A DNA stretch of 64,000 nt, taken from NCBI GenBank assembly GCA_018003015.1, contig JAGNEZ010000026.1:1-64000 (forward strand). Reading direction: 5' to 3'. The translations under genes and the position numbers were made by a program. Under the pieces are notes generated by a model. It ran no database searches, had not been told where the DNA came from, and saw nothing but the letters and a program-made list of their open reading frames with translations. The number at the start of each line of letters is the position of its first letter. The first letter of the stretch is position 1. Below, piece after piece: positions 8,930-41,958 of this stretch. This DNA is from Phycisphaerae bacterium (lineage in GTDB: Bacteria; Planctomycetota; Phycisphaerae; UBA1845; PWPN01).

Positions 8930-8933
8930 CGTA

Positions 8934-9029: not shown

Positions 9030-9069
9030 TGTCGGTCCCTCCGGAAAACCTCCGGCGCCCGCATGGAAT

Positions 9070-9103: not shown

Positions 9104-9111
9104 GTGAGAGC

Positions 9112-16477: not shown

Positions 16478-17704
16478 TCAGTCGTGCCGCAGAGACTCGA
16501 CCGGCTTGAGGGAGGAAGCCCGCCGGGCCGGAAGCAGGCCGAAGAGCAGGCCGATCGCCACGGCGAAGCCAAAGGGACCGCCGATGAGCGGCACGGAGAA
16601 GATGGCCGGCCAGCCGGTGAGGTGCGAAATCGCGATACTCCCGACGAAGCCCATGAGGACGCCGAGGATGCCGCCGACGCCCGCCAGCGTCGCGGACTCG
16701 ATGATGAACTGGCTGAGGATCATGCGCTGGGTGGCCCCGACGGCCATGCGGATGCCGATCTCCCGGGTTCGCTCCATCACCGTGACCAGCATGATGTTCA
16801 TGATGCCGATCCCGCCGACCAGGAGGCTGATGGCCGCGATGCTTACCAGCAGAGCGGTCATGACATTCGATGTGCTCTCGGCCATTTCCGCGTATTCCTC
16901 GATCGACTTAATGATGAAGTCGTCCGGTTCGCTTTCGCCCAGACGGTGGCGCTGGCGGAGCAGGCCCTTGATCTGGGTGATGGCCAGGTCGATCTGGTTC
17001 TCATCGACGGCTGAGGCGACGAACGCCTGGGGTCGATCACCGCCCGCCAGATGGCGAAAGAAGGTATTGAGAGGGACGACCACGGTGTCGTCCTGGTCCT
17101 CTCCGAGCGGATTCTGACCCTTGGTTTCGAGCAGGCCGACGATCTCGATGAGCGTGCCCTTGAGACGGATCCGCTGGCCGACCGGATCCATGTCGCCGAA
17201 GAGTTGCTCGCTGGTGGTCTTGCCGATGAGACAGACCTTGGCGGCCGTGTCATCGTCGCTGGGCTCGAGTTCGCGCCCGCTCTCGACGTTCCAGGCGCGG
17301 ATGGCGGTGTACCGGCAGCTGGCCCCGGTGACCGGGGCGGGCCAGTTGCCCAATTCGCTGACCGCCTGGCAGATGATGCGGGCGACGGGGGCACAATGCG
17401 AAACCGCCGAGCATTCTCGTTCGATGGCCTGGGTGTCTTCGATGGTGAGGGTGACGGCCGATCCGGTTCCGGCCTTGACGCCGCTGGCACTGGTCGAGCC
17501 TGGCACGCCGATGATCATGTTGCTGCCGAGGTTGGCGATCTGCCCCTGGATTTTCTTCTTGGCTCCCTGGCTGATCGACACGACCGAGATGATCGCTCCG
17601 ACACCGATGATGACGCCGAACATGGTCAGGAAGCTGCGGGTTCGGTGGCGGCTCATCTCGCGGAAGGCGATGTGGAAGCTCTCGATGAAGAGTGCCCAGT
17701 TCAT
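16478..17704 (-). CDS. MacB/FtsX-type ABC transporter permease
   Basis: 408 residues. Layout is one N-terminal membrane helix after a cytoplasmic start (RSFLTMFGVIIGVGAIISVVS), a periplasmic MacB-PCD domain (about residues 50-270), and three C-terminal helices. The FtsX coupling motif reads ERTREIGIRMAVGAT. It pairs with the ATPase upstream: the ATPase stop and this start share one base (TGATG at 17706-17702), implying translational coupling. Substrates of MacAB-type pumps are peptides, lipids or macrolides; specificity cannot be read. Confidence 0.9.
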   Translation of the reverse strand: MNWALFIESFHIAFREMSRHRTRSFLTMFGVIIGVGAIISVVSISQGAKKKIQGQIANLGSNMIIGVPGSTSASGVKAGTGSAVTLTIEDTQAIERECSAVSHCAPVARIICQAVSELGNWPAPVTGASCRYTAIRAWNVESGRELEPSDDDTAAKVCLIGKTTSEQLFGDMDPVGQRIRLKGTLIEIVGLLETKGQNPLGEDQDDTVVVPLNTFFRHLAGGDRPQAFVASAVDENQIDLAITQIKGLLRQRHRLGESEPDDFIIKSIEEYAEMAESTSNVMTALLVSIAAISLLVGGIGIMNIMLVTVMERTREIGIRMAVGATQRMILSQFIIESATLAGVGGILGVLMGFVGSIAISHLTGWPAIFSVPLIGGPFGFAVAIGLLFGLLPARRASSLKPVESLRHD

Positions 17705-18492
17705 CAGGTCGGCCCTCCCGTCGCGGGAGCCGCCTCCGAGCGAAGCTCCTCTTCGAGCGTTGCCCCAAGGCTCTTGATCGGCGGAATCGGGGGTCCTCCC
17801 GCCACCGGGCCGGGCTTGTCGTAGACGACGCGGCCGTCGTACAGAATCACGATGCGGTGGAGGTAAGCGGCGATGTCCGGATCGTGGGTGACCACGATGA
17901 GGCTGAGCTTCTCGTCGCGGTGCAGGCGGGCGAGGAGCTCCAGGACTTCCTCGCTGGTCTTGGAGTCGAGGTTTCCGGTCGGCTCGTCGGCCAAGAGGAT
18001 AGGGGGGCGGTTGGCGAGTGCCCTGGCCAGGGCCACGCGCTGCTGCTGGCCGCCGGAGAGCTGCCAGGGCATATGTTCCATGCGATCCACGAGGCCGACG
18101 GTCGCCAGTGCCGCCCGGGCCCGTTTCTCGCGTTCCCTGCGAGGCACGCCCATGTAAACCATGGGCAGTTCGACGTTCTCCAGGGAAGTGCCGCTGCGGA
18201 GGAGGTTGAAGTTCTGAAACACGAAACCGAGCTTGGTTCGCCGGCAGTAGGCCAGCTGGGCCTCGTTCATCTGGTCGACGCGCTCGCCATCCAGCCAGAA
18301 GACCCCGCTGGTTGGCGTATCCAGGCAGCCGAGGATGTTCAGGAGCGTGCTTTTGCCCGAGCCGCTGGCCCCCATGATGGCGATGGCCTCTCCCGTGGCG
18401 ATGGTGAGGTTGATGCCCCGGAGGGCGTGGACACGGACCTCACCCATGTCGTAGACCCTGTGGACATCACGTAGTTCGACGATGTTGCTCAT
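17704..18492 (-). CDS. MacB/LolD-type ABC transporter ATP-binding protein
   Basis: 262 residues with a full nucleotide-binding domain: Walker A GASGSGKST, Q-loop, signature LSGGQQQRVALARAL, Walker B ILLADEPTGNLD and switch His in VVTHD. The GASGSGKS and EPTGNLD wording is typical of the LolD/MacB branch. The C-terminus extends about 30 residues past the domain. It lies 23 bp after the adaptor gene and overlaps the permease by one base, forming a three-gene efflux operon. Confidence 0.93.
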   Translation of the reverse strand: MSNIVELRDVHRVYDMGEVRVHALRGINLTIATGEAIAIMGASGSGKSTLLNILGCLDTPTSGVFWLDGERVDQMNEAQLAYCRRTKLGFVFQNFNLLRSGTSLENVELPMVYMGVPRREREKRARAALATVGLVDRMEHMPWQLSGGQQQRVALARALANRPPILLADEPTGNLDSKTSEEVLELLARLHRDEKLSLIVVTHDPDIAAYLHRIVILYDGRVVYDKPGPVAGGPPIPPIKSLGATLEEELRSEAAPATGGPT

Positions 18493-18515
18493 GTCGAGGG
18501 CGTCTTCCGGTTACC

Positions 18516-19817
18516 TCAGGGCTGGCGGTTCTCCGGCCGGGCGAGCATGATCGCGCGTTGCAGGGCGCTCTGCCCGTCCGCGTGCATGCGGACCTCGGTG
18601 GCGAACTCATCGCCGGCTTTGACCGGGCTGTTCTCGGCAATGATGGTTTCGCGGTTGTCGGTGAAGACGGTCCAGACCGGCACGACCTGCCATTTCTGGC
18701 TGACGTACTGCCACAGTGTGCCCTTGACCGGCTCGAGGGGCGGTGGCGTGAAGCTGACCTCGCTGGGGCGTGTCTCGACGGGGTGTTTTCCGATCACCGG
18801 GGTGGGCGCCGGTGCGGGGGCCCATTTGAGGGCGTCCAACGTGTGGCGGATCTCGGTTGGCGGCAGCGGGGGTCGGAATCGCAAGGCCGAGTTGGCGATC
18901 TTGAGGGCGTTCTCGCGGTGCACGATTTCGATGGTGACATCGGCGGGCATGCCCGGGCGAAGGAGCTGCTCACGGTTTTCGACATCGATGGTGACGGTGT
19001 AGGTGACCACGTTGCCCAGGGTCTTGGGCTGGTTGCGAATCTGCCGCACGGTGCCGGTGAAGGTCCGGTCCCGGTAGGCGTTGACCTTGAAGGTGGCAGC
19101 CTGGCCGGGGCAGATGTACCCGACGTCGGATTCGCTGACGTCCGCGAGGAGCTTCATGTGGGAGAGATCCTCGGCCAGGGAAATCAGTTCGGGAGCCATG
19201 AACGCCGCCGCGACGGTCTGGCCGACGTCCACCCGGCGGTCGATGACGACGCCGTCGATGGGGGAAGTGATCACGGTCCGGTCAAGGTGGTACTTGGCCA
19301 GATCGACGCGGCTCCCGGCCCCTTTGACGCTGGCCTCGGCGGCGGCGACGTCTGCGACGGCAGCTTCCCTGGCGGCCTCTCGCATGGCGAGCTCGTCCGG
19401 ACTCGCGGCTTGGCCGGCCTGCAGACTCTTGGCTTTCTGATACTGGCGTTCCGCCTCTTTGGCCTGGACCTGGACCTGCTTGAGCTGGGCCTGGATACGA
19501 GCGACGTCGGCCTCGGCTTGTTTGAGCTCGGCCTGGACGAGCTCAGGCTTGAGCCGGATCAGCTCCTGCCCACGTTTGACCCGGTCGTTGTGTTCGACTA
19601 GAACGCTCTCGACCGTGCCCGAGGTCTCGCAGCCGATCAGTACCTCCGTTGTCGGAGCGAGTTTGCCGGTTGCCGAGACGCTCAGGGCGAGCGAGCCGGT
19701 GGCGGCCTTGGTGGTGCGGACTTCCATCTCCTCTTTCTGGTTAAGGGCCTTCCAGCCCAGCCAGCCGCCGGCCCCCAAAGCCGCGATGATCAGAAGTTGG
19801 ACGGACCGTTTGAACAC
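18516..19817 (-). CDS. HlyD/MacA-type periplasmic adaptor subunit
   Basis: 433 residues. An N-terminal membrane anchor (LLIIAALGAGGWLGWKAL) is followed by the first lipoyl half (IGCETSGTVESVLVEHNDRVKRGQ), an alpha-hairpin coiled coil (about residues 90-185), the second lipoyl half (TVITSPIDGVVIDRRVDVGQTV) and a beta-barrel domain. It has an insertion near residues 320-370 rich in proline, which is longer than in typical MacA. It is first in the operon with the ATPase and permease. Divergent transcription starts toward the KAS III operon. Confidence 0.9.
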   Translation of the reverse strand: MFKRSVQLLIIAALGAGGWLGWKALNQKEEMEVRTTKAATGSLALSVSATGKLAPTTEVLIGCETSGTVESVLVEHNDRVKRGQELIRLKPELVQAELKQAEADVARIQAQLKQVQVQAKEAERQYQKAKSLQAGQAASPDELAMREAAREAAVADVAAAEASVKGAGSRVDLAKYHLDRTVITSPIDGVVIDRRVDVGQTVAAAFMAPELISLAEDLSHMKLLADVSESDVGYICPGQAATFKVNAYRDRTFTGTVRQIRNQPKTLGNVVTYTVTIDVENREQLLRPGMPADVTIEIVHRENALKIANSALRFRPPLPPTEIRHTLDALKWAPAPAPTPVIGKHPVETRPSEVSFTPPPLEPVKGTLWQYVSQKWQVVPVWTVFTDNRETIIAENSPVKAGDEFATEVRMHADGQSALQRAIMLARPENRQP

Positions 19818-20058: not shown

Positions 20059-21189
20059 GTGAACCCCCAGTTGAAGCGTGTTTCCATTGTCGGTACCGGT
20101 TCGTTCCTGCCGAACGATCCCGTTCCCAACAGTCGGCTTGACGAGGTGTTGGGACCGCTGACCGACGCTCCCGAGCGGGTCAAATCCTTCATGGAGACGA
20201 TTGGGACGCGCATGCTGGCCAACAGCGGGGTGGAGTTCAGACACTTCGCGATCGACACCAAGACTCGGAAACTCACCCACACGGTTGCCTCTCTGGGCGA
20301 GGAAGCGGTCCGCCGGGCGTTGGACGCGGCGGGCATCAAGCCGACCGATGTAGATCTGCTGATTCTGGCGAGTTCCAACTATGACGAAACTACGCCACCC
20401 ACATCGGCTTTGCTGCAAGAGCGTTTGGGGATTGAGACGTGTGCCGAGATGGAGGTTCACTCGAACTGTTCAGGGGTGGGTAAAGCCATCCAGATCGCCT
20501 ATGACGCTCTTCGGGTAGGGCGGTACAAGACGGCGGTGGCGGTTTACCCTCAGCTCTCCAGTGTCTATCTCCGCCGCGAGTACCTCAACCAGCCGTTCAT
20601 GACCAAGAAGCAGGCGGCGTTGAGGTATATTCTGGCCGATGGGGCCGGGGCGGTGGTGTTGCAGGCGGTGGACGCTCCTGCCGGCAAGGCGGTTCCACAC
20701 GAGCTGCTCGGGACTTTCGTTGAGTCGGTGGGCGGCAAACGATCGCCGGGCATGACTGCCGGTGGCGGTGTGGGCAACCTGGTGGAGCCCGACAAGCAGA
20801 TCGTTCACATGTGGAAGCAGGGGCTGCACCATCTGGATCAGGATTTTGCCGCGGTTAACCGGGATGCTGCGCGGACACTGCATGAGGGCGTCGTGCGAAT
20901 GATCGCCCAGTTGGGCATCGATCCCAAGAGCGTCTCGCAATGCGTGTTCTCGATTCCAACCCGGCAGCTGTATGAGGACGGCGTCGGGCCGTTCATGGAG
21001 TTCTTTGGGCTCACCCGCAACGAGATCAAGTTTCGTGCCTGCAACACCGGCTACTGCGGTGGTGCTTCGCTTCTCCTGCACTTTGATGAGATCGCCCGGA
21101 ACGGCGAACTGAAGACGGGGGACGTGGTTGTTGTTCACTCCGTCGAGTCGAGCAAGTGGATGACTGCCGGCTTCGTTGTGAGGTGGTAG
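20059..21189 (+). CDS. KAS III (FabH-like) ketosynthase with an atypical active site
   Basis: 376 residues of the thiolase fold. The catalytic Cys is at 137 in HSNCSGVGKA and the conserved Asn is at 329 in ACNTGYCGGAS. Where FabH has the HQAN histidine this protein has PTRQL (residues 300-304), so the usual His is absent. That change suggests altered chemistry, such as acyl transfer or non-decarboxylative condensation. Start GTG 20059 has GAAAGGG seven bases upstream. It is first in a tight operon with a membrane methyltransferase, an SDR and a GT-C-like protein, and not in a fatty-acid synthesis cluster, so a special lipid or polyketide role is inferred. Confidence 0.82.
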   Translation: MNPQLKRVSIVGTGSFLPNDPVPNSRLDEVLGPLTDAPERVKSFMETIGTRMLANSGVEFRHFAIDTKTRKLTHTVASLGEEAVRRALDAAGIKPTDVDLLILASSNYDETTPPTSALLQERLGIETCAEMEVHSNCSGVGKAIQIAYDALRVGRYKTAVAVYPQLSSVYLRREYLNQPFMTKKQAALRYILADGAGAVVLQAVDAPAGKAVPHELLGTFVESVGGKRSPGMTAGGGVGNLVEPDKQIVHMWKQGLHHLDQDFAAVNRDAARTLHEGVVRMIAQLGIDPKSVSQCVFSIPTRQLYEDGVGPFMEFFGLTRNEIKFRACNTGYCGGASLLLHFDEIARNGELKTGDVVVVHSVESSKWMTAGFVVRW

Positions 21190-21191
21190 CC

Positions 21192-21770
21192 ATGGCGGAT
21201 GCCGGCCACCGCGGGGGAGGGGGTAGCGCCCCAGCCAGGCAGGGCATCAGGGCGTGGCTGGACTCCATACCGCTGACTGCCCGGATGATCTTCTACGCGA
21301 TCTTTTTCCTCGCCGGTGTTCTCGTCGGATTGCCCTATCTTGCCTATCAGATCGACGTGCATCTTCCTGCGTGCCGTATCGATATCGGCGTGTTTCGCTA
21401 TGTTGGCGTGGCGGTTTTCGTGTTTTTCTTCATCATCTACGCTCGCGGCTCGTACACGCTGACCCGGCTGGGGCGCGGGGCCTACGTCGAGTTCGACCCG
21501 CCCAAGGAGTTCGTGGCGACTGGTCCGTTCCGCTGGTGCCGAAACCCGATTGCCGGATCCGTGGTGGGCATGATTCTCGGCGAGGCTGTGGCGTTCTCGT
21601 CCGTCGGCATCTTCCTGCTGTTCCTGGTCGCGATTCCCCTTGCCCATCTGCAGGTGGTCCTGCTGGAGGAACCCCTGCTGGAGAAGCGATTTGGATCGGC
21701 CTACAACGACTATCGGGCTCGTGTGCCGCGCTGGTTTCCGCGGCTTCCCGGAAGCGAGGGCCCCCCGTGA
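21192..21770 (+). CDS. ICMT/phospholipid-methyltransferase-like membrane protein
   Basis: 192 residues. Four hydrophobic helices are followed by the C-terminal SAM-binding part typical of the isoprenylcysteine carboxyl methyltransferase superfamily: TGPFRWCRNPI, then EEPLLEKRFGSAYNDY and RVPRWFPR. It probably methylates a small lipid or prenyl product in the membrane. The start at 21192 is two bases after the ketosynthase stop and has GAGG about nine bases upstream. Its stop overlaps the next start (GTGA). Confidence 0.8.
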   Translation: MADAGHRGGGGSAPARQGIRAWLDSIPLTARMIFYAIFFLAGVLVGLPYLAYQIDVHLPACRIDIGVFRYVGVAVFVFFFIIYARGSYTLTRLGRGAYVEFDPPKEFVATGPFRWCRNPIAGSVVGMILGEAVAFSSVGIFLLFLVAIPLAHLQVVLLEEPLLEKRFGSAYNDYRARVPRWFPRLPGSEGPP

Positions 21771-22753
21771 TTGTGGCACTGACCGGCGGCACGGGCTTCC
21801 TGGGCCAGGCCCTGATCCGGTTCCTGGTGCCCGCCGCCGAGCAGGTGCGTGCGCTGGTGCGCCGGCCTGCGGACGAAGATCGGATTCGCTCGTGGGGCGC
21901 CGTCCCCGTTCGCGGCGATCTGGTCGTGCCTGGCGGATGCGACGGACTGGTGGGCAAGGGCAACATCCTGATTCACTCGGCGGCCCGTGTTGATCTCACC
22001 GGTACCTGGGCCGAGTTCCGTGAGACCACTGTGGAGGGGACGCGCCGCCTCCTCACCGCCGCGCTTCCCCAACAGCCGGCCCGGGTGGTTTACGTCAGTT
22101 CGGCGGTAGTTTACTCCCCCGCCGCCCAAAGCTCGCCGATGTGTGCCGAGCGGACTCCAGTCGAACCCGCCTCGTTCAACTACTACGGCCGGGCGAAGCT
22201 CGAGGCCGAGAATCTGGTTCGCGAGCAGTGCGATCGGGTGGGGTGTCCGTGGACGATCGTTCGCCTCGGTTTCCTGTACGGCCCGGAGAACCGGGCGATG
22301 GAGAGCCACTTCATGCCGCTGATCAAGGGGCGATGGCTGTTCATCGTCGGCAGCGGAGAGAACCGCATTGCGACGCTGTACGTCGATGACGCGGCCCGGG
22401 CGGTGGTGCTGGTCGCCACGAGCCAGGCACCTGCGAACCGGATCTACGACGTCGCCAGCGACGAGCCGGTCAACCAGTGCCAGTTTCTGGACGGGACATG
22501 TGACGCGATGGGTTTGCCTCGGTCCCGACAGCAGGTGGGGTGCGGGCTGGCTCGTTTCTTCAGCGGGGCGGTGGATCTGTGCTCTCGGATCACGGGCAAG
22601 AGGTTCTCGTTCTCTCGGGCGATGGTGGCCCTGATGTCCGCCGACCAGGTCATCGACGCGGGCCGCATTCGCAGGGAACTCGGCTGGCGGCCGGAGGTGA
22701 CCTTCGAAAAAGGCATCCGGTTGACTCGCCAATGGTGGCTGCGGACGCACTGA
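21767..22753 (+). CDS. Extended SDR (NAD(P)-dependent epimerase / 3-beta-HSD-like)
   Basis: 328 residues. The N-terminal Rossmann motif is TGGTGFLG (residues 6-13); the active site has VSSAVVYS and YYGRAK, the Tyr and Lys of YxxxK. The length and C-terminal part (YVDDAARAVVLV, then GWRPEVTFEKGIRLT) fit the 3-beta-hydroxysteroid dehydrogenase/OleD-like branch, which reduces keto-lipids. Start GTG 21767 overlaps the methyltransferase stop and follows GAGGG. Reduction of the ketosynthase product is a natural inference but is not shown. Confidence 0.83.
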   Translation: MIVALTGGTGFLGQALIRFLVPAAEQVRALVRRPADEDRIRSWGAVPVRGDLVVPGGCDGLVGKGNILIHSAARVDLTGTWAEFRETTVEGTRRLLTAALPQQPARVVYVSSAVVYSPAAQSSPMCAERTPVEPASFNYYGRAKLEAENLVREQCDRVGCPWTIVRLGFLYGPENRAMESHFMPLIKGRWLFIVGSGENRIATLYVDDAARAVVLVATSQAPANRIYDVASDEPVNQCQFLDGTCDAMGLPRSRQQVGCGLARFFSGAVDLCSRITGKRFSFSRAMVALMSADQVIDAGRIRRELGWRPEVTFEKGIRLTRQWWLRTH

Positions 22754-24846
22754 TGTCGTTGCCGGAACAGACTGAAGCGATGACGCCGCCGGCCGGTTGG
22801 TCCCGAGGCGGGCTTGTTGTCCTTGGTCTCCTGGTCGTTCTCCTGGCCGGTCACGGCACTTCCCTCTGGGACGGCGTGTTTCTTGACGACCACTGGCAGC
22901 GAGCTGCATCCGCCCACTATGGCTGGGGCTGGAACGACCTGATCGAGTCGGCGACCATCGACCTTTCGGGCAGATGGAACCACTTCTGGTGGCAGGAGAA
23001 ACCGATCGTCTGGCGCTATGCTCGCCCGGTCGCCATGCTCGTGGTCAAACTGGAGTATGTGCTGACCCTGGGGAGTCCGGTTGGTATCCACGCATTTGCC
23101 TTGTTCTGGCACGGCCTGACCGGCTGGCTGGTCTATCGGCTGGCGGCCTGGGCCGGGCTGGGCCGTTTCTGGGCGTTCCTGGCGGGCGCCCTGTTCATTC
23201 TGCACCCGCATTCGACAACCACGGTCAGCTGGGCATCGGCCCGCAATGCCCTGGTCAACGCCTGTTTCTTCGCCGCGGCCGTGCTGCTGTATGCCCGGGC
23301 CTCGCTCGGAGTGGCGGGCCGCCCTAGCTCCTCGCAATGGAGGCGGTTCGTCCCGGCCATGTTGTTCTGGTTGCTGGCCCTGTTCAGCCGCGAGACGGGG
23401 ATCATTTTCCCGGCGATCATCGTCCTGCTGGACTTGTGCTTCGGGGGTTGGCGGCATGTCATCCGCCGATGGCCGGTGTATGTAGCCGTCGGTATCCTGT
23501 CGGCGGCTTTCCTCTACTACCGCTTGTTCGTGTTCTCCGTGGATGCGGTACCGCCGGTCTACTTCAGCAAACCAAGCGGGCTTGAGTACGTGCCTTGGGC
23601 GGTGGGCAAAATACTGACCTGTCTGTTCTCGGAAGTGTTCTACACGCCCATGGTCATGGGCTTGTCTACGCTGAGGAATCTCTCGCCGGAGATTATTCTC
23701 GCTTATGCCGTCGTCGTGGTGTTGACCGGCCTGATTCTGTGGTGGTACTTCTGGGCGTCGCGAGGGCATTGTGGCCGATGGTTCTGGTTCCTATGGACCC
23801 TGGGTGCCTTCGCCCCGGTGATCCCCGTGTTTACTGCCCCGCATTTCGCCTATCTGCCGACGATTCCGTATGCCGTCATGATGGCCCTGATGCTGAGGCG
23901 GCTGCCCGGGCGATGGCGGCACGCGGTGACCACGTTGATCATCCTCGCGACGGTCTGGTCGTTCGGGGTCTACCGGTTCATCTACCGCGGTACGGTGCGG
24001 GCTGAGCAGCTGGTGCATGCGGATATGCTCTTCGAGGCTTGGCCGCCGCCGCCGGGCACCCGAGCGTTTTTCATCAACCTGCCGGTTGCCAACGCGTACG
24101 CCGGGCTGGTTCTTCGGGAAGCCTGGCAGGCCGAGGGTTTCGAGGGCTACACCCTGACGCTGGCGACCCACACGCTGATGATGGATCGCTCGAGCGTGGT
24201 GGAGCGTACGGGCCCACGCGAACTGACCATTTCGATTGCGCCGCCGGGTTACTTCACCGGTCTGACCGGTGGGATGTTCCTGAAGGTGCTGCGGCCGAGC
24301 GGCAGACTGGACGCGGGAACCACGGTCAAGAGCAAGGAGTTAGACGCGACCGTGCTTGAAGCCGGCGGCGACGGCGTTCTCAAGCTGAGGTTCACATTTC
24401 CCAAGCGGTTGTCTGAGACTGACTACTACTTCTATGTGGGGTCGCCCGAGCGACCTGCGTACCGCCTGAGATTCGATACCGTCCCGGTCAATCTCGAGGG
24501 GAGCCGATACGGTGATCTCTTCGCTTCCGCTCGGTCATCCGATCCTGCGGCGCGAGACAAGGCTCGCCGCGAGATCCACGACCTGACGCGGCCGTTGGCG
24601 ATCCAAACGGCCAGCCCTTTGCAGCAACGCCTTGCCGGTGCCGCGATCATGTCCGACGGCGATCTGGATTTGATCGAGGAGTGGTGGGAGCAGATGGACG
24701 CTCCCCGGATGATCGAGGAGAATCGCCGCTGGCGAGAGCAGCACGCCACCATGTTGGCTGAACGCGGGCACTTCCTCAAGATCATGGAGATCGTCGGACG
24801 GATCGTCAGGTCGGATTTGTTCCTCACTGGAGGCAAGAAGTTATGA
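22753..24846 (+). CDS. GT-C-like membrane protein with soluble C-terminal domain
   Basis: 697 residues. About 11 membrane helices lie in residues 20-430, with a loop GVFLDDHWQRAAS after the first helix that resembles the acidic GT-C signature (paired Asp). The C-terminal 260 residues are soluble. GT-C proteins move sugars from lipid carriers to acceptors outside the cytoplasm; the assignment is by architecture only. The start shares a base with the SDR stop (TGATG at 22751-22755), so the two are coupled. It converges on the glycosyltransferase array. Confidence 0.65.
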   Translation: MSLPEQTEAMTPPAGWSRGGLVVLGLLVVLLAGHGTSLWDGVFLDDHWQRAASAHYGWGWNDLIESATIDLSGRWNHFWWQEKPIVWRYARPVAMLVVKLEYVLTLGSPVGIHAFALFWHGLTGWLVYRLAAWAGLGRFWAFLAGALFILHPHSTTTVSWASARNALVNACFFAAAVLLYARASLGVAGRPSSSQWRRFVPAMLFWLLALFSRETGIIFPAIIVLLDLCFGGWRHVIRRWPVYVAVGILSAAFLYYRLFVFSVDAVPPVYFSKPSGLEYVPWAVGKILTCLFSEVFYTPMVMGLSTLRNLSPEIILAYAVVVVLTGLILWWYFWASRGHCGRWFWFLWTLGAFAPVIPVFTAPHFAYLPTIPYAVMMALMLRRLPGRWRHAVTTLIILATVWSFGVYRFIYRGTVRAEQLVHADMLFEAWPPPPGTRAFFINLPVANAYAGLVLREAWQAEGFEGYTLTLATHTLMMDRSSVVERTGPRELTISIAPPGYFTGLTGGMFLKVLRPSGRLDAGTTVKSKELDATVLEAGGDGVLKLRFTFPKRLSETDYYFYVGSPERPAYRLRFDTVPVNLEGSRYGDLFASARSSDPAARDKARREIHDLTRPLAIQTASPLQQRLAGAAIMSDGDLDLIEEWWEQMDAPRMIEENRRWREQHATMLAERGHFLKIMEIVGRIVRSDLFLTGGKKL

Positions 24847-24891
24847 GTGATGAATAGAGGTCACTTGCTGCTCCGTTCGCTACTCATGACT
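24839..24891. terminator. Inverted repeat at convergent operon ends
   Basis: AGTTATGAGT (24839-24848) and ACTCATGACT (24882-24891) pair at 9 of 10 positions across a 33-base loop and include the stop codons of both convergent genes. It could end transcription from both sides. No long T run is present. Confidence 0.35.
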
Positions 24892-26134
24892 GATCTTGCA
24901 GCTCTTCGATCGCCCTGCACGCTGGTTCCGCCGGATTCACGTGGCGCAGCCGTTCGGCGCACTCCTTGCATCGGGCAGCCACTTCGGGAGACTCCAGCAG
25001 GGTGTGGAGCCGCTCGGCCAGGAGCGGGGCCTGATACTCCTCCCTGCGGATCGTCAGCAGGGTGCCCAGCCTCTTGAATCGGGCGGCGTTGTCCGGTTGA
25101 TCCAGGCCGAAGGGGATCGCCAACTGGGGCACGCCCGCGGCCAGGGCCAGCGAGCCGGTGCCGATTCCACCGTGGTGGACGATCGCCGCAGCCCTCGGCA
25201 ATGCCGCCTTGAACGGCAGGAACTCGAAATGCCGCACGCCGTTGGGCAGTGTCTCGGGCAGGAACTGTCGATAGGGCGTCAACAGGATGCCTCGCCGGCC
25301 AAGGATGCGGCAGGCTTCGGCTGATGCCTGCAGGAACCACTGCACGTCGTGGAGCGGGGATCCGGATGAGAAGATGATCGGCGGAGTGCCTTCACTCAGG
25401 AACGCCTCGGCGTCGGGGGGCATCGAAATGGCCTCGGCCCCGTCGTACATGGGAAACCCCGTCAGCAGGACCTGGGCCGGCCAGTCTGGCTGCGGTGGGG
25501 CGAACCAATCGGGGAACAGACCGATCACCCGTTGCGGCGAGTTGTACCACTCCTTGAGAATCCGGCGAACGGGGGGCAGTCCCAACTCGGCGCGGAATGC
25601 ATTGATCGGAGGGCCGATGACGCGGTCTACCAGGGCGTCCACGATGCGGTAGGTCACCGGCCGCAGAAATCGGGGGATCAGGTGAAAACGGGGCAGGGCG
25701 GACATCACCGGAGGCTGATGAATGCTCCGGAGCATGAGCGGGTAGACGTGAACCGTCGCCAGGGGCACGCCGAGCTCGTCGTGGGCGATGCGCGCCCCGA
25801 AGGCTCCGGGGCAGGCGGCGACCACCGTCTCGCCGGGCACGTAGCAGTCGCGAATGCAGGCGTACCAGCGCGGCAGCGTTTTGGGCAGGATTTCCCGGGC
25901 CAGGATCTCGAAACTGGCGGCTGCGTTTTTGAGCTGCGGATTCGGAGTGTCCGAGCCGGTGGCAAACTGGATGCCGAGTGGCTCGAAGTCGAGTCCTGCC
26001 CGACGGGCGTGCCGGTCGTAGCGGTCTTCGGTGAAGAGTGTCACCTTGTGACCGCGAGCCTTGAGCGCCCGTCCCAGCCAGACGAAGGGGTACACGTCCC
26101 CGTCGGTGCCGAAAGGTATCAGCAGAACATGCAT
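24884..26134 (-). CDS. GT1-family glycosyltransferase (MGT/sterol-glucosyltransferase-like), paralogue 1
   Basis: 416 residues of the GT-B fold. The N-terminal domain starts MHVLLIPFGTDGDVYPFVWLG; the C-terminal donor site reads VHHGGIGTGS, then GVPQLAIP and DQPDNAARF, the nucleotide-sugar-binding motif of the UGT/MGT family. Members glycosylate lipids, sterols or macrolides. The start at 26134 is fixed by alignment with the three neighbouring paralogues and overlaps the stop of paralogue 2 by one base, so it is translated by coupling. It is last of the minus-strand operon. Confidence 0.88.
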   Translation of the reverse strand: MHVLLIPFGTDGDVYPFVWLGRALKARGHKVTLFTEDRYDRHARRAGLDFEPLGIQFATGSDTPNPQLKNAAASFEILAREILPKTLPRWYACIRDCYVPGETVVAACPGAFGARIAHDELGVPLATVHVYPLMLRSIHQPPVMSALPRFHLIPRFLRPVTYRIVDALVDRVIGPPINAFRAELGLPPVRRILKEWYNSPQRVIGLFPDWFAPPQPDWPAQVLLTGFPMYDGAEAISMPPDAEAFLSEGTPPIIFSSGSPLHDVQWFLQASAEACRILGRRGILLTPYRQFLPETLPNGVRHFEFLPFKAALPRAAAIVHHGGIGTGSLALAAGVPQLAIPFGLDQPDNAARFKRLGTLLTIRREEYQAPLLAERLHTLLESPEVAARCKECAERLRHVNPAEPACRAIEELQDQS

Positions 26135-27387
26135 CAGCGATCCGCTCCCGCAAGATGCTCGACGGCCGCACAGGCCTGACTCAGAGGATCTGTAAGCCGG
26201 AGTCTGCTCGCCAGCTCGCGGCACTGAGCGAGAACAGTCGGCCTGTCGATCAACTCAGCCAGCAACCGGGCGGCCGCCTCGGCGGTGTATTCATCAGGAT
26301 GCAGGCTCCGACCGACACCGAGATGTTCGAGCCGGGCGGCGTTATCGGGCTGGTCAAGACCCAGGGGGGTGATCAACTGGGGAATCCCGGCGGCCATGGC
26401 CTGTGACAGGGTACCGATTCCCCCGTGATGGACCATGGCAGCGCATCGTGGCAGGAGCCGGCGGTACGGGAGATAGTCGAAGTGGCGGACGTTGTCCGGC
26501 AGGTTGGGGGGAACATGATCGCGGAACCGGGTCATCAGGATGCCTCTTCGGCCGAGCATCCGGCACGCGTCCATCGAAGCGGCGAAGAAACCCGGCCAGT
26601 CGCCGACATTGGAGCCGGTACTGAAGACCAGGGGCGGATCGCCGGCTGCAAGGAAGGTCTCGGCCTCCGGGGGCGTGGGTTGGTGATCACCGGCGTCGTA
26701 CAGCGGAAACGTGGTCATCAGGGTCTGGGGAGGCCAGTCCGGCTGGGGGGGGGCGAACCAATCAGGGAACATGGCGATGATCCGTCGGGGGGAGTTCCAC
26801 CAGTCGGCCATGATTCGTCGGACGGGGGCCAGGCCCAGCTCGGCCCGGAAGCTGTTGATTCCGGGGCCGAGTTTCCGATCCAGAACGGTGTCGAGCAGCC
26901 GGAACGTCAAGGGTCGAATGAAGCGCGGGATCTTCCTGAGTCGTGGCAGCGCCGGGATGACCGGGGGGGCGTGGGATGAACGAAGCATGAGCGGCTGAAG
27001 GTGGATGCTGGCCAGGGGGACGCCGAGTTTCTCCTGGGCGACTCGGGCTCCAAAAACCAGCGGGCAAGCGACGACCACCGTCTGGCCGGGCTGGTAGCGA
27101 TCGGCAATCGACTTGAAGGTGGGGCGGAGCATGGCCGGGACGACGACGCCCGCGAAGAATGCGAAGCTGGCCTTCTCGTCGCCGCAGTGCGGATTGTTGA
27201 AGGCATCGAGGTACTCCTGGCGGCTGCCCAGTGGGGCGAACCCGAGGCCGGCACCGCGGACCCGTTGCTCGAAGAACTCGCTGACGATGACGGTGACTCG
27301 GTGGCCGCGGTCGCGCAAGGCGCGGCCCAGCCCCACATAGGGCAGAACGTCGCCGGCGCTGCCAAAAGGCAACAGCAATACGTGCAT
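26134..27387 (-). CDS. GT1-family glycosyltransferase, paralogue 2
   Basis: 417 residues with the same architecture as its neighbours: MHVLLLPFGSAGDVLPYVGLG at the start, donor motif VHHGGIGTLSQ, GIPQLITP and DQPDNAARL. The central acceptor-side segment (PINSFRAEL-type helix, WWNSPRRIIAMFPDWFAPPQPDWP) is nearly identical in pattern across all four copies, showing recent duplication. Start ATG 27387 follows 190 bp of non-coding DNA that carries a palindrome, so it may have its own promoter. Confidence 0.88.
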   Translation of the reverse strand: MHVLLLPFGSAGDVLPYVGLGRALRDRGHRVTVIVSEFFEQRVRGAGLGFAPLGSRQEYLDAFNNPHCGDEKASFAFFAGVVVPAMLRPTFKSIADRYQPGQTVVVACPLVFGARVAQEKLGVPLASIHLQPLMLRSSHAPPVIPALPRLRKIPRFIRPLTFRLLDTVLDRKLGPGINSFRAELGLAPVRRIMADWWNSPRRIIAMFPDWFAPPQPDWPPQTLMTTFPLYDAGDHQPTPPEAETFLAAGDPPLVFSTGSNVGDWPGFFAASMDACRMLGRRGILMTRFRDHVPPNLPDNVRHFDYLPYRRLLPRCAAMVHHGGIGTLSQAMAAGIPQLITPLGLDQPDNAARLEHLGVGRSLHPDEYTAEAAARLLAELIDRPTVLAQCRELASRLRLTDPLSQACAAVEHLAGADR

Positions 27388-27530
27388 GCGCGGTTCCCGA
27401 GCACAATGACTTATGGCCGTCTCGCCCGATCGCCCGCAGGGCCGGGGTCGGTTGATCGCCACCGACCGGGCACTTTACCACGTCGCCGGACGATTTCACA
27501 CCTCGGCTTCTGTTCTGCGGATCGGCGGTG

Positions 27531-27546
27531 ATCATGAGATCATGAT
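27531..27546. promoter_or_regulatory. 16-bp palindrome upstream of paralogue 2
   Basis: ATCATGA (27531-27537) and TCATGAT (27540-27546) form a perfect inverted repeat with a two-base spacer, in the only long gap inside the glycosyltransferase array. It has the size of a dimeric repressor operator. No regulator gene is adjacent. Confidence 0.3.
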
Positions 27547-27576
27547 GGCCAGGCGGTCGGGTTCTCGTGAATGCCG

Positions 27577-28872
27577 CTAAGCGACAAAAGCGGAGGGGGA
27601 ACAGCCGGTTGTCACGCGTGCGGCTCCGCCGCCCAGCTGTTCGGTCAGCAGGCAAGCTTCATCCAGAGGGTCGGACATCTTGATCCTGTGAGCCAGCATG
27701 CGGCAGTTGGCGGCAGTCTCCTTGGATCCGAGGAGGCGGCGCAGCCGGTCCGCTACCTCCGCTCCGCGGTAGCGTCCGGGGTGCAGGGCGTCGCCCACGC
27801 CCAGGCGAATGAGACGAGCCGCGGTGTCGGGCTGATCGTTGCAGATCGGCATGACTAGCTGTGGGATGCCGGCGGCCATGGCTTGGGCGGCTGATCCGAT
27901 GCCCCCGTGATGGACCAGGGCGGCGGCCTGCGGCAGTAGGCGGCTGAATGGGAGATAGTCGAAATGCCGGACTTCGGGAGGCAAGGACTTCGGGACCTGC
28001 TCCGGAAACCGGGTGAGCAGAAGACCGCGACGGCCAAGCAACCGGCAGGCTTCGATCGAGGCCTGGAAGAACCAGCGGACCTCTTGGATCGGCGAGCCCG
28101 GCGTAAACACGATCGGAGGGTCGCCCGCGTCGAGGAACTCGCGGACTTCGCTGGGTAAAGGTTCTATCTCGCCTCCGTCATAACGCGGGAATCCGGTGAG
28201 CCGCACCTGCCGGGGCCAGTCACGCTGCGGCGGACTGAACCACTCCGGGAACAGCCCGATGATCCGGTCAGGCGAGTCCCACCAATGAGAGACAAACCGG
28301 CGGATCGACGGCAGGTTCAGGCGAGCTCGGAACCGGTTGATGGCCGGTCTCAGCATGCGATCGAAAACCGTCAGGTCGATCAAGGTGTAGGCCACCTTGC
28401 GCCATCGCCAGGGTATCCACTGCATGACCGGGAACTCCGAGAGCACGGGCGTTCGGTACACGCTCCGCAATCCGGAAGGGACGGTGTGGATGGTGACCAG
28501 CGGCAGGCCCAGCCTCTCCTGGGCGATCCTTGCCCCGAACGCGTTCCAGCTGGCAGCCGCCACTGTCTCCCCAGGGACGTAGTGCTCGGCGACACGCTCG
28601 TAGATGGGCTCGAGGGTTAGGGGAACGACGCGCTCCGCGAAGGCCCGGAAGGCTTGCCGGTGATGCCACAGCTCGCCGTCACGGATGATGCTCCGGTACT
28701 CCTCGGCGGTGCCCAAAGGCGCGAAATCAAGCCCGGCTTGACGCACCTGCCGCTCGAAGTAGCCGCTGGTGATCGTGGTCACGCGATGGCCGCGAGCTCG
28801 AAGACGCCGGCCGAGCCCAAGATAGGGATGGACGTCACCGGCGGTCCCCAGCGTCACCAGAAGAACATGCAT
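27577..28872 (-). CDS. GT1-family glycosyltransferase, paralogue 3
   Basis: 431 residues. It shares the MHVLLVTLGTAGDVHPYLGLG start, the acceptor-side WWDSPDRIIGLFPEWF segment and the donor motif VHHGGIGSAAQ with NDQPDTAARL. It differs from paralogues 1 and 2 in the donor motif (ICNDQPD in place of GLDQPD), hinting at a different sugar donor. The start is placed at 28872 to match the paralogues; an ATG nine bases earlier (28881) is possible. The C-terminal 20 residues have no counterpart in the others. It is 19 bp after paralogue 4. Confidence 0.87.
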   Translation of the reverse strand: MHVLLVTLGTAGDVHPYLGLGRRLRARGHRVTTITSGYFERQVRQAGLDFAPLGTAEEYRSIIRDGELWHHRQAFRAFAERVVPLTLEPIYERVAEHYVPGETVAAASWNAFGARIAQERLGLPLVTIHTVPSGLRSVYRTPVLSEFPVMQWIPWRWRKVAYTLIDLTVFDRMLRPAINRFRARLNLPSIRRFVSHWWDSPDRIIGLFPEWFSPPQRDWPRQVRLTGFPRYDGGEIEPLPSEVREFLDAGDPPIVFTPGSPIQEVRWFFQASIEACRLLGRRGLLLTRFPEQVPKSLPPEVRHFDYLPFSRLLPQAAALVHHGGIGSAAQAMAAGIPQLVMPICNDQPDTAARLIRLGVGDALHPGRYRGAEVADRLRRLLGSKETAANCRMLAHRIKMSDPLDEACLLTEQLGGGAARVTTGCSPSAFVA

Positions 28873-28891
28873 GGAGGGCATTCTAACTGAA

Positions 28892-30169
28892 CTAACTGGC
28901 TCGGGCTACCCGCCGAGCCGGGCTAAGTGGAAGACCTTCGATGATCTCGCAGGTCGCCGACAGGGGGTTCGCACTTCTGAGTCTGACCGCCGCATTCCTG
29001 CATGCGTCGGCCACCGACCTGACCCCCAACAGCTTGTTGAGACAGCGGGCGACCACCGTGGCCTGGTAGTCCCTGGGCTTGATGGCCAGGGCCACTCCGA
29101 GACGCAGCAGGCGGGCGGCGTTGTCCGGCTGGTCGTTGGTGAAGGGCATGACCAGCTGAGGAATGCCGGCCGCCAAACCCTGGGCCAGCGTGCCGATTCC
29201 GGCATGATGGACCAATGCAGCAGATTTGCCTAGAATAAAGCTAAACGGTATGTAGTCGAAATGCCGAACCGTGGCCGGCAGCGATCTGGGGACTTGCGTA
29301 CGGTCCCGGGTAAGCAGAATACCCCGCCGGCCACACGCGACACAGGCCTTGACCGAGGCATCAAAGAACCAGTCCCAGTTCTGGATGGGGGAGCCGGGGG
29401 TGAAGACTATGGGCGGCTCGCCGGCGGCGAGGAACTCCTCGACGCCGGGTGGGATGGGCTCGACCTCGCCAGCGTCACACAACGGGAAACTGGTGAGCCG
29501 TGTCTGGGCGGGCCAGTCGGGTTGCGGCCGGCCGAACCAGTCGGGGAACAGGCCGATCACCCGCTGCGGCGAGTTCCACCACACGCCCAGGATTCGCCTG
29601 ACGGGGGGCAGACCGAGCTTCGAGCGGAAGGCGTTGATTGGCGGGCCCAGGAGCCGATCCGCCACCAGGGCATCGGCCAGATCGAAAACGGCTCGCTTCC
29701 AGAGTCTGGGCATCCACGGCCGTACTGGCAGACCTGAGACCAGCGGGGACTCGTATTCGCTTCGGAACATCTCCGGCTGCAGGTGGACGGTGGCCAACGG
29801 AATGCCCAGTTTGTCGTGTGCGATTCTGGCCGCAAAGCCAAATCCGCAGGCGGCGATGACCGTATCGTTGGGTACGTATCGCTCGACAATGGCCTCGTAG
29901 GTGGGAGGCAGCATCTGGGGAACCACACGTTGTGCAACGACTTTGAAGTACCGCTTGGGATGCCAGATGTTCGGGTCGTTGATGACCGCCTGATATTCCT
30001 TTTCCGTGCCGAGACCGCAGAAATCGAGACCTATGCGTCGCACCAAAGCCTCGAAGTAGCCGCTGGTGATGATCGTGACCCGGTGACCGCGAGCCTTGAG
30101 CCCGCGTCCCAGCCAGATGTGAGGGTACACATCCCCCGGAGTCCCCACCGGTACCAAGATGACGTGCAT
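28892..30169 (-). CDS. GT1-family glycosyltransferase, paralogue 4
   Basis: 425 residues. It begins MHVILVPVGTPGDVYPHIWLG. Its donor motif reads VHHAGIGTLAQ, with Ala in place of the first Gly found in the other three copies, then GIPQLVMPFTNDQPDNAARL. The FTNDQPD wording groups it with paralogue 3. It is the first glycosyltransferase in the minus-strand operon, 101 bp after the acyltransferase gene. Order of action among the four cannot be deduced. Confidence 0.88.
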   Translation of the reverse strand: MHVILVPVGTPGDVYPHIWLGRGLKARGHRVTIITSGYFEALVRRIGLDFCGLGTEKEYQAVINDPNIWHPKRYFKVVAQRVVPQMLPPTYEAIVERYVPNDTVIAACGFGFAARIAHDKLGIPLATVHLQPEMFRSEYESPLVSGLPVRPWMPRLWKRAVFDLADALVADRLLGPPINAFRSKLGLPPVRRILGVWWNSPQRVIGLFPDWFGRPQPDWPAQTRLTSFPLCDAGEVEPIPPGVEEFLAAGEPPIVFTPGSPIQNWDWFFDASVKACVACGRRGILLTRDRTQVPRSLPATVRHFDYIPFSFILGKSAALVHHAGIGTLAQGLAAGIPQLVMPFTNDQPDNAARLLRLGVALAIKPRDYQATVVARCLNKLLGVRSVADACRNAAVRLRSANPLSATCEIIEGLPLSPARRVARAS

Positions 30170-30270
30170 GAGCGCTTCCCAAAGAGCCGAGGGCGGAGTT
30201 CCCTGACGAGCGTGCGTCCCTCATGATGCATGCGGGCCCCGCCGCCGACACAACGCCCTGATATACAGGA

Positions 30271-31644
30271 TCATGAAGCGTCCAGCAATGCCGCCGCAAA
30301 GTCGTCCATGAGGCGGTTCATGGATGCAGGCGTGATCCGCGACTCCAGGAAGGTCGAGGTCACGTGGAGCTGGCCATGGATCAGGTTGAGGTCGATCGCG
30401 AATCCTGACAGGGGAGGCGGAATACCCAGTCCATAGGTATGGGCCTTGTTGGCGCCGCAGAACGTCGGGAGCAGCGTGGGGGCGTCCGCGGAGAAGCCTA
30501 CCTGCAGCGATGGAGGCGTACCGAAGGCTACTGGGAGGGCGGATTCCCGCTCCGGGTTCATGTTCTGATACATGGCCTCGGTCAGGACGGCTGGTGGGAG
30601 CCTGGAGATCAGCTTCACGAGAGCCAAGTGGCGTCGGATTCCGTCGCCGGACACGATCTGCTCGGTTTGATGGCGCAGAAGGGCCGCCACCGCCTTGCGG
30701 TCCTCGACCATCCTGGCTGGAACACGCAACAGGAGGCCGCTGAAGAGGTTGTGGCAGACGGGCGATCGCTGACGGCGTTTGCGGTGGTCGAGCACGTTGA
30801 GCGTGGAGTAGGTGGCGCCCGGGGGAGGCGGCGAGGGCATGGCCCGGTGCATGGCCCGCAGCGCACTGGCCCGCACGAAGTCGCCGTACTGGGCGAAACC
30901 GCAGACACGCAAGGCGGCTTGCTGCGTCTGCCGGGTTTGCTCGGCGGAGAAGAACCGTCTGATGTGGCGGATACGCCCGATGGGCCGTCGCACCCGTCCG
31001 GCGGGAAGCCACTGGTCATGGCTCGGGATCCCCTTGGACCTGGTGCGGTCTTTGGCCAAGAGTCTGACCTGACCGAGAAGGGTAGGGATTGCGATAAGGG
31101 CCTCGAAATCGCGTCGCTCGTCGTCGCCGGAAGGCCGGATACTGGCCAGGTCGGGTTTCTCACGGTAGATCCGGTCGATGTCCTCGGCGAGGAGAATCAT
31201 CCCGCGGACGTCCATGAACGCGTGAGGCCAGCGAATCACGACCCGGTCGCCATCCGGCAGCCCGCGAAAGACGTGGAACTGCACGGGTGGCAGGGTAATC
31301 AGGTCCATGGGTTCGTGGAGCAGGTCCTCGCCCTGGCGGATCCATTCCTGTTCGGTGGGTGGATCGAGAGAATGGACGCGGACCACGCGGTCCAGGTCTG
31401 GCGGTGCAGCCTCCAGCCGCCAGCGCGGCGTTCCGGTAACGGGGTGGCGGTCCAGCCGGGAGCCCACGGCGGGATACAGGCGGTAAATGGCCAGCAGCGT
31501 GCGTTTGAGTCCCTCCGCATCGATGGGCCCGATCATGTCCAGATGGACCTGGATGTGGATGCCCGGCAGCCCCAGGCGTCTCAACGCCCGGTCGTAGGCG
31601 AAGAACACGCGGTCCTGGGGGTTGAGTTCCGCGAAGCGGGCCAT
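30271..31644 (-). CDS. Condensation-type / PapA-WS-like acyltransferase
   Basis: 457 residues of the CoA-dependent acyltransferase superfamily (condensation, PapA and wax-synthase relatives). The catalytic motif HHxxxDG appears as PHAFMDVRG around residue 140: the second, catalytic His and the Asp are kept, and the first His is Pro. The second half has the usual NVLDHRKRR segment. Such enzymes esterify hydroxyl groups of lipids or sugars with fatty acyl groups. It lies 22 bp after the sulfotransferase and upstream of four glycosyltransferases, so acylation of a glycolipid is a reasonable inference. Confidence 0.78.
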   Translation of the reverse strand: MARFAELNPQDRVFFAYDRALRRLGLPGIHIQVHLDMIGPIDAEGLKRTLLAIYRLYPAVGSRLDRHPVTGTPRWRLEAAPPDLDRVVRVHSLDPPTEQEWIRQGEDLLHEPMDLITLPPVQFHVFRGLPDGDRVVIRWPHAFMDVRGMILLAEDIDRIYREKPDLASIRPSGDDERRDFEALIAIPTLLGQVRLLAKDRTRSKGIPSHDQWLPAGRVRRPIGRIRHIRRFFSAEQTRQTQQAALRVCGFAQYGDFVRASALRAMHRAMPSPPPPGATYSTLNVLDHRKRRQRSPVCHNLFSGLLLRVPARMVEDRKAVAALLRHQTEQIVSGDGIRRHLALVKLISRLPPAVLTEAMYQNMNPERESALPVAFGTPPSLQVGFSADAPTLLPTFCGANKAHTYGLGIPPPLSGFAIDLNLIHGQLHVTSTFLESRITPASMNRLMDDFAAALLDAS

Positions 31645-31665
31645 CGGGGTCTCAGCAGGCCTCCA

Positions 31666-32586
31666 TTATTGCGGGGCGGCGGTTAGAGGCTGAAGCGGGT
31701 TGCGAGATTGCGTTCCCTCGGCCGCAGGTCGATCTTCGGGGCACTCGATGGTGTAGCCGGTCTCGGCGGCCTGGGTGCCGCAGAGCGCCCTGATCGCCCG
31801 CTGGTGGTCGTGGGAGAGGTTCTTACCCCGCCCGACCGAGCTGGTATCCACCGGCTTGGGAGCCTTGAACAGCACTTCCGGCGCGCCGATACCGCCGAAG
31901 CCCGGAGGCATGTGCTTGTGGTCTATCATCCGTTCGTGATAGGGCATGCCGACGCTTTCACAGATCCGCATCATCGCCGAGGCAGGATCCTGGACCAGGT
32001 CTTCGTAGCGAACGATGAACAGCCTGCGGTCCCTGGCCCAGTCCATGAAGTGAGCCCAGTTCCGGGCGGCCCAGCGCACGATGTGTTCGTCGTCGGTGAA
32101 GCGTGGTACGGATGGCCACATCAGGCGGATCAGCACGCCGGTGTAGCCGAAGAACAGCTTGTTCAGCAGTTTCAGCGTGGAGGCGATCGTGTCGCACGGA
32201 TGCCGGGTGATGGCGATGATCGGGTGCCCGGCGGCGGCGAATCCGTCCAGGAGCTCAAAGTTGGCCCAGGGCTTGTTCAGCTCCAGCTCGTGGAAGCACT
32301 CTTTCATGACCAGATAGTTCATCTGGTTGGCCCGGGCCAGGTCCTTCAAATAGGTGAAGTACTCATCGTAGTTGCGCACCCGAGGCATGGGGACACGGAC
32401 CATGCCGGCCCGTTTCAACAGCGACCTGAACCAGTACTTCAGCGCCCAGTGGGGAAGGAGGTCGTCGAGGTGAAAAGGCTCGCTCAGGGACAAAACCTTG
32501 TCGCCGCCGCCCATGAGCTTGGCCAGCAGCGTGGTGCCTGTCCGTGGCGGACCGACGATGAAGATCGGCTTGACGTCCGGCATCAT
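31666..32586 (-). CDS. PAPS-dependent sulfotransferase
   Basis: 306 residues. The 5'-phosphosulfate loop is FIVGPPRTGTTLLAK near the N-terminus and the 3'-phosphate site is AITRHPCDTIAS near residue 135, both complete. RYEDLVQDP is the third family landmark. It transfers sulfate from PAPS to a hydroxyl or amino group; some single-domain homologues in glycolipid clusters act on sugars. It is the first gene of the minus-strand operon. The C-terminal 40 residues are disordered-looking. Sulfation of the glycolipid is inferred from context. Confidence 0.88.
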   Translation of the reverse strand: MMPDVKPIFIVGPPRTGTTLLAKLMGGGDKVLSLSEPFHLDDLLPHWALKYWFRSLLKRAGMVRVPMPRVRNYDEYFTYLKDLARANQMNYLVMKECFHELELNKPWANFELLDGFAAAGHPIIAITRHPCDTIASTLKLLNKLFFGYTGVLIRLMWPSVPRFTDDEHIVRWAARNWAHFMDWARDRRLFIVRYEDLVQDPASAMMRICESVGMPYHERMIDHKHMPPGFGGIGAPEVLFKAPKPVDTSSVGRGKNLSHDHQRAIRALCGTQAAETGYTIECPEDRPAAEGTQSRNPLQPLTAAPQ

Positions 32587-35186: not shown

Positions 35187-35195
35187 CTGGTTACC

Positions 35196-36605: not shown

Positions 36606-36913
36606 GGTTCTGCTCTCCGTTCAGCCGAGAGGCCCGGTCAGCACGAGCGACGAGCGGTCCGGCTCCTCAGGCAGGGGCGGGATGTTGACGCCCGGGCGCT
36701 CGCCGGCTGGGTCCTCACGCTCGGAAGCGGCCTGCCTCTGATTCTACAAGCCGGAGGAGGGGAATGCGACAGGCACGCGCTTCGCAGGAATCCGGATCTC
36801 CGTTTCGCAGGGTCGCCGCTCGATTGACCTTGGTCTCACGGGCCGGTAGGATGGCAATGGGTTCCCTTGCTCCCGGCCGTACCGTAAGAGTCGTCCTTAG
36901 CTGGAGAATGCAC
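36606..36913. promoter_or_regulatory. Divergent selA / selenoprotein control region
   Basis: 308 bp between divergently transcribed selA and the secreted selenoprotein gene. The plus-strand promoter at 36824-36852 is the best signal. On the minus strand TAGAAT (36746-36741) is a possible -10 for selA but has no good -35. A shared regulatory region is possible. Confidence 0.4.
36824..36852 (+). promoter_or_regulatory. Sigma-70-like promoter of the secreted selenoprotein gene
   Basis: TTGACC (36824-36829, 5 of 6) and TAGGAT (36847-36852, 4 of 6) are exactly 17 bases apart and about 60 bases before the start codon. Confidence 0.5.
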
Positions 36914-41890: not shown

Positions 41891-41958
41891 GGGCTTCTCC
41901 GCCGGGTCCGATGCGTTGTGGTTCTTGGCGTGGGGGTTGCAGGAATAGGAGCTGAGCG

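Follow-up and report, generated by a model that had tools for sequence, protein, structure and literature searches.

A conserved ketosynthase core and a lineage-specific decoration operon: a candidate locus for the biosynthesis and export of a lipid-like product in Phycisphaerae-type planctomycetes

The mycobacterial PapA/Rtf/Stf glycolipid clusters bring together a PapA-like acyltransferase, GT1-type glycosyltransferases (GTs) and a sulfotransferase. Enzymes of the KAS III family of ketosynthases are represented by StlD/DarB in dialkylresorcinol and stilbene synthesis and by OleA in the olefin pathway, where the short-chain dehydrogenase/reductase (SDR) OleD is also found. A further enzyme of the KAS III type, the photopyrone synthase PpyS, is tied to signaling, and the study describing it gives its catalytic residues as C129, H281 and N310 with Glu105 as the base, the base of OleA being E117 (PMC4578411). 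Here we describe a locus with elements of each of these systems from a Phycisphaerae bacterium (Planctomycetota; GenBank assembly GCA_018003015.1; 6.86 Mb in 144 contigs). It lies in the first 64,000 nucleotides of contig JAGNEZ010000026.1 (C26; 80,099 bp), a stretch that we call the window, and centers on ten genes at 20059-32586. With confidence that we would put near the midpoint, we interpret these genes as a biosynthesis-and-export locus of Phycisphaerae-type planctomycetes, in which a conserved core is joined by a lineage-specific decoration operon and whose product is predicted to be exported, lipid-like, glycosylated, acylated and probably sulfated.

The ten genes, their families and their convergent arrangement are borne out, by profile matches and gene calls, as the initial annotation had given them from the bare sequence; the calls were made with custom scripts and their starts are approximate. 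Four genes are on the plus strand, in the order KAS III-like ketosynthase (hereafter KAS; 20059..21189), ICMT/PEMT-like membrane methyltransferase (~21285..21770, with an uncertain start that could lie at 21156), extended SDR of the 3beta-HSD/OleD-like type (21767..22753) and a GT-C-fold membrane glycosyltransferase (GTC; ~22732..24846, start likewise uncertain). The other six are on the minus strand and, in order of transcription, comprise a PAPS (3'-phosphoadenosine-5'-phosphosulfate)-type sulfotransferase (31666..32586), a condensation/PapA-like acyltransferase (30271..31644) and four GT1/GT28-type glycosyltransferases, GT1 (28892..30169), GT2 (27577..28881), GT3 (26134..27387) and GT4 (24884..26134). 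The convergent stops of GTC and GT4 are separated by 37 bp. As the ICMT-like and SDR genes overlap, the SDR and GTC genes overlap or abut, and gaps of just 0-21 bp separate GT3 from GT4, GT1 from GT2 and the sulfotransferase from the acyltransferase, the genes on each strand are likely to form an operon. Two features had been overlooked in the earlier inventory, the unusual active site of KAS and a divergent exporter on the minus strand (16478-19817), which begins 241 bp ahead of KAS. The latter consists of a HlyD-type membrane fusion protein (18516..19817; PF16576, 71.6 bits), which is the gene divergent from KAS, an ABC ATPase (17704..18492; PF00005, 115.5 bits) and a MacB/FtsX-type permease (16478..17704; PF12704, 136.7 bits; PF02687, 70.6 bits). 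Gene order is identical in a genome of the same genus (G001), and the ratios of nonsynonymous to synonymous substitution rates (dN/dS) between the two genomes fall at 0.02-0.18 for all 14 genes tested (0.022 for the permease), indicating that the genes are maintained under purifying selection.

Comparison across genomes separates a conserved part of the locus from a local one. KAS matches (E<=1e-20) are present in 26 of 61 relatives, and a scan of a genome collection with two KAS patterns returned 42 loci, 38 of them in Planctomycetota and one each in Armatimonadetes, Margulisiibacteriota, Saganbacteria and Taylorbacteria. Removal of duplicates left 58 distinct KAS loci, among them the window locus and an all but identical copy from the same genus, and the neighbors of each within <=12 kb were identified with tblastn; many of these loci are cut by contig ends, and on the KAS tree three rows (L069, L071 and L087) were moved from 'other' to the core class on the strength of tblastn matches or a sister contig. 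The ICMT-like gene neighbors KAS in 33 of the 58 loci and the SDR in 30, with both close by, as a KAS-ICMT-SDR group, in 28. GTC follows with 9 loci, HlyD with 7 (202-299 bp from KAS in six exporter loci), MacB with 6, the acyltransferase with 6 and the sulfotransferase with 5, while each of GT1-GT4 is found near KAS in two loci only, namely the window and the same-genus copy. These counts establish KAS-ICMT-SDR, often with GTC and the divergent exporter, as the conserved unit and the GT operon as a local addition. Together with the split arrangement in a further genome described below, they also rule out the whole 12.5-kb block as a single conserved unit. Three further proteins recur near the core, one of the sulfatase superfamily (6 of 58 loci), another that is GT-C-like (5) and one with hexapeptide repeats (4). 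The first of these is typified by a PF00884 protein at L069:17561-19159, with relatives in L072-L074, L076, L110, L112 and L115. The sulfatase motif is CxPSR; these proteins mostly have CTTPSF at that site, with Thr in the place of the nucleophile, and by this residue pattern may be phosphotransferases or esterases rather than sulfatases.

By sequence, KAS is a member of the KAS III family: it passes PF08545 (30.2 bits, cut-off 24), and nearly all of the 45 PDB sequences that it matches at E<=0.001 are named KAS III or ketosynthase. It reaches none of the subfamily cut-offs among the NCBIfam models listed. Its nearest relatives point to StlD/DarB, which is both the closest PDB entry by profile (StlD 5gk0/5gk2, E about 1e-30, best 3.4e-30, over the full length) and the best-scoring NCBIfam model (NF005293); however, the score of 105 bits is far under that model's cut-off of 450. 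The active-site Cys is retained in all 58 aligned rows (Cys137 in the window KAS), as are E132, H134, S135, N136, H258, P300 and G331. The column of the FabH/StlD His, by contrast, holds Ser in 48 rows, Thr in 9 and Gly in 1 (Ser298 in the window), and that of the Asn holds Tyr in 58 of 58 (Tyr332, aligned to the N of the GNT motif). At one aligned residue, in the column of Ser298, the two StlD sequences in the PDB disagree; the first has His and the second Ala, and we interpret these as the active-site His and a mutant of it. Nor is there a Glu at 24-26 residues before the Cys, where residues 111-113 are T/S/G/I, T and P in a 35-row alignment, a comparison of spacing and not of structure for which we assumed C143 as the active-site Cys of OleA. 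KAS is thus a distinct branch of KAS III, with a retained Cys, a substituted His and Asn and no Glu at the base spacing, and it is likely active but does not seem to work as FabH, OleA or PpyS do.

The locus accordingly departs from each of the described systems. From StlD/DarB it differs in the Ser/Thr and Tyr residues at the active site, and no DarA-like cyclase was recognized beside KAS. It recalls the OleA/OleD pathway in that a KAS III-family gene adjoins an OleD-like SDR; however, KAS lacks the His, the Asn and the Glu at the base spacing, the SDR reaches 104 of the 580 bits that its model requires, and no OleB or OleC (alpha/beta hydrolase and AMP ligase) is annotated in the region, the only part of the genome examined for them. 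OleABCD olefin synthesis was thus rejected, as neither active site nor partners fit. Like PpyS, KAS is a KAS III-type enzyme with a tie, here only a possible one, to signaling; of the Cys-His-Asn and Glu-base constellation of PpyS (PMC4578411), it lacks the His, the Asn and the Glu. The minus-strand operon resembles the mycobacterial clusters in combining a PapA-like acyltransferase, GT1-type GTs and a sulfotransferase; it differs in its MacB-type exporter, in its phylum and in the unrelated core enzymes, with no polyketide synthase (PKS) or MmpL recognized in the region. In searches of the open-access literature on planctomycete glycolipids, sulfolipids and pairs of KAS with kinases, none of the entries listed describes such a cluster or pair.

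Among the partners of KAS, the methyltransferase passes PF04191 (38.3 bits, cut-off 25) and scores 28.8 bits against NF040696, under that model's cut-off. The SDR matches PF01370 (102.6 bits) and PF01073 (71.2 bits, cut-off 22); its best NCBIfam model is OleD (104.3 bits, cut-off 580), and it most resembles 2-alkyl-3-oxoalkanoate reductase. The membrane protein GTC has no Pfam match, and its earlier GT-C-like label had a weak basis, which structure prediction has since strengthened: in Foldseek searches with its AlphaFold2 model (pLDDT 75.4, pTM 0.77) the 12 best matches are all GT-C enzymes (ArnT, STT3/PglB, PMT and AftA), with modest TM-scores (0.24-0.36 by query length). Asp52-Asp53, a pair in the first loop, is invariant in nine aligned rows. 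We therefore assign the modeled protein to the GT-C fold.

The decoration operon is made up of enzymes with recognizable relatives elsewhere. GT1-GT4 pass the cut-offs of both PF06722 (61-82 bits, cut-off 31.7) and PF03033 and resemble vancomycin-type GtfD and sterol glucosyltransferases; one further close relative is encoded in the same genome, on contig C32. GT2-GT4 share 52-55% identity with GT1, marking the four as tandem duplicates by sequence. For this reason the proposal of up to four sugars on the product is weak, and we dropped the idea that the four GTs transfer four different sugars. The acyltransferase, whose label had also started from little, falls under the PF00668 cut-off (17.9 against 30.6 bits), and phmmer with the single sequence found no PDB relative; a six-row profile, however, has as its best PDB match the phthiocerol/phthiodiolone dimycocerosyl transferase 8s6l (E 7.7e-5), which upholds the assignment. 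HxxxD is kept, as PH..xD in the five rows that cover the site, with Pro in the place of the first His of HHxxxDG; an AlphaFold2 model of this protein (pLDDT 44) was not used. The predicted sulfotransferase is ordinary in sequence, passing both PF13469 (67.5 bits, cut-off 27) and PF00685 (33.7 bits, cut-off 22) and matching the CurM sulfotransferase (E 5.9e-6); the genome holds two PF00685 matches and one PAPS kinase.

Reading each chemical step from family resemblance, we posit the following pathway, whose three-enzyme core would make a lipid or polyketide. KAS would join or transfer a fatty acyl unit, by non-FabH chemistry as the retained Cys and the substituted His and Asn suggest; the SDR would reduce a keto group and the ICMT-like enzyme would cap a carboxyl or hydroxyl with a methyl group. 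The soluble GTs and the acyltransferase would then decorate the resulting hydroxyl, the sulfotransferase would transfer sulfate from PAPS, the GT-C enzyme would add a polyprenyl-phosphate-linked sugar at the outer face, and the exporter would move the amphiphile outward. The product would thus be an amphiphile whose decorations vary among species; it may be sulfated and located at the surface. The decoration operon, which would add sugars, an acyl group and sulfate, is probably younger than the core. In support of a single pathway are the clustering of the core, the co-occurrence of acyltransferase and KAS, the 8s6l match, the GT-C fold, the PAPS kinase and the purifying selection on the genes. 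The co-occurrence is strict: acyltransferase matches (E<=1e-10) are found in 19 of the 61 genomes, all 19 of which have KAS, and in none of the 35 KAS-less ones. The association also holds within families (f1, p=0.007; f4, p=0.03), in Fisher tests that ignore relatedness and for which families f7 and f8 are uninformative. The acyltransferase is moreover linked to KAS in varied gene orders, lying within the core gene run as KAS-f16-f17-COND-COND-ICMT-SDR-f14-GTC (L107), KAS-ICMT-SDR-f14-GTC-COND (L113) and COND-KAS-ICMT-SDR (L119), where COND stands for the acyltransferase; in L106 a candidate match lies 9.1 kb from KAS. Co-occurrence and linkage together place the acyltransferase with the KAS core.

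Several observations weigh against one pathway. The presence of the GTs shows no association with KAS (5 of 26 KAS-bearing and 4 of 35 KAS-less genomes, p=0.31). In another genome of the same family (G003), the exporter, KAS, ICMT, SDR and GTC genes lie together on contig C360, which ends just past GTC and may have carried further genes, with the acyltransferase and one GT paired on C77 and another GT on C170. The region has no recognized acyl carrier protein, AMP ligase or PKS, and the strongest neighbor signals of KAS relatives, the core itself aside, come from membrane kinases, considered below, which do not require a structural lipid. The first two of these fit two independent, abutting pathways, the KAS core making its own methylated, reduced and exported product and the sulfotransferase-acyltransferase-GT operon an unrelated decorated lipid or small molecule. 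The GTs adjoin the core in one genus only, and the majority of the 28 core loci lack an operon of this kind in their vicinity; in family f7, weak acyltransferase matches lie away from KAS in the short stretches inspected. However, the confinement of the acyltransferase to KAS genomes and its position inside the core run speak for a common pathway, as does a sulfotransferase 145-189 bp from KAS in L111 and L115, and we regard two separate pathways as rather unlikely. The single unit of the initial annotation therefore stands for the acyltransferase and, from five of the 58 loci, finds some backing for the sulfotransferase; it does not extend to the GTs, and the acyltransferase-GT pair off the core in G003 shows that the second half does occur independently in a relative.

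The kinases suggest a different role for KAS. In all nine candidate-phylum loci (eight in genomes of the Margulisbacteria/Saganbacteria phylum, one in a genome of Taylorbacteria; L140:231-3817, L141:9992-13579, L142:6375-9442 and L157-L162), a membrane histidine kinase follows immediately downstream of KAS on the same strand, overlapping it or at <=10 bp. KAS itself occurs in 8 of 74 genomes of the Margulisbacteria/Saganbacteria phylum, all eight with the kinase, and in only 1 of 285 genomes of the Taylorbacteria class. The kinases span ~600-850 aa, one of them cut by a contig end. Three were scanned against Pfam, and all have HisKA, HATPase and GAF (the last weak in L142), two have PAS, and two show a HisKA_7TM match that is under the cut-off in both. 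In planctomycetes, a second KAS copy adjoins an extracytoplasmic function (ECF) sigma factor and a membrane Ser/Thr kinase at 7 of the 58 loci (L067:6950-11522, L068, L086, L089, L092, L094 and L099), which form two separate groups on the tree and have two gene orders. On contig C121 of the window's own genome (~5020-8660; L100), a fragment of KAS that is interrupted by an in-frame stop precedes ECF sigma and kinase matches, and by sequence looks like a decayed third copy of this unit.

That KAS recurs next to membrane kinases in phyla far apart from one another suggests that it may act in signaling. KAS would, on this account, found a family of signal synthases, His/Asn-less KAS III enzymes whose lipid-like product is sensed by membrane kinases, and the product of the window core would belong to the same chemical class, reduced, capped with methyl, decorated further and exported. 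There are precedents in photopyrones, which come from a KAS III-type enzyme (PMC4578411), and in methyl 3-hydroxy fatty acid signals, for which the sensor is a membrane histidine kinase (PMC8578825, PMC11960443). However, no kinase adjoins KAS in the window. The sensor domain of the KAS-linked histidine kinases, although its seven closest matches (query included) are all KAS-linked, is present in 38 of 74 genomes of the phylum, most of them lacking KAS, and hence does not mark a dedicated receptor family. Likewise, 24 of the 61 genomes carry the Ser/Thr kinase family, some of them without KAS. Taken together, these findings make a signal synthase quite unlikely in our judgment. Less probable still is that KAS is a non-condensing acyltransferase or scaffold and that the core acts on a membrane lipid or pigment already present and builds no new chain: the replacement of the FabH-type His and Asn by Ser/Thr and Tyr and the missing Glu at the OleA/PpyS base spacing would fit this, but Cys137 and the E-x-H-S-N-C and HH motifs are (nearly) invariant in the 58 rows, which indicates catalysis, and the paired SDR is most like an enzyme acting on 2-alkyl-3-oxoalkanoates.

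Beyond the locus, the window holds SelB and SelA genes of a selenocysteine system at 33270-36605, upstream of the sulfotransferase operon, and, at 41084-46335, a methyltransferase gene that precedes those of three 2-hydroxyglutaryl-CoA dehydratase-like proteins (PF06050) and of a BcrAD/BadFG ATPase. A UbiA-type prenyltransferase adjoins a flagellin gene at 7953-10521, and predicted proteins with no Pfam match are encoded at 14280-16409 (709 aa), 36908-38203 (431 aa) and 38624-40810 (728 aa).

Finally, a KAS branch with an invariant Cys but neither the His nor the Asn raises the question of how a KAS III enzyme works when it lacks the usual triad. Hardly any Phycisphaerae or related planctomycetes are in culture, and little is known of the lipids that they secrete or carry in their envelopes. 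The conserved core with its species-variable decorations offers a defined target for linking genes to the lipids of planctomycetes.

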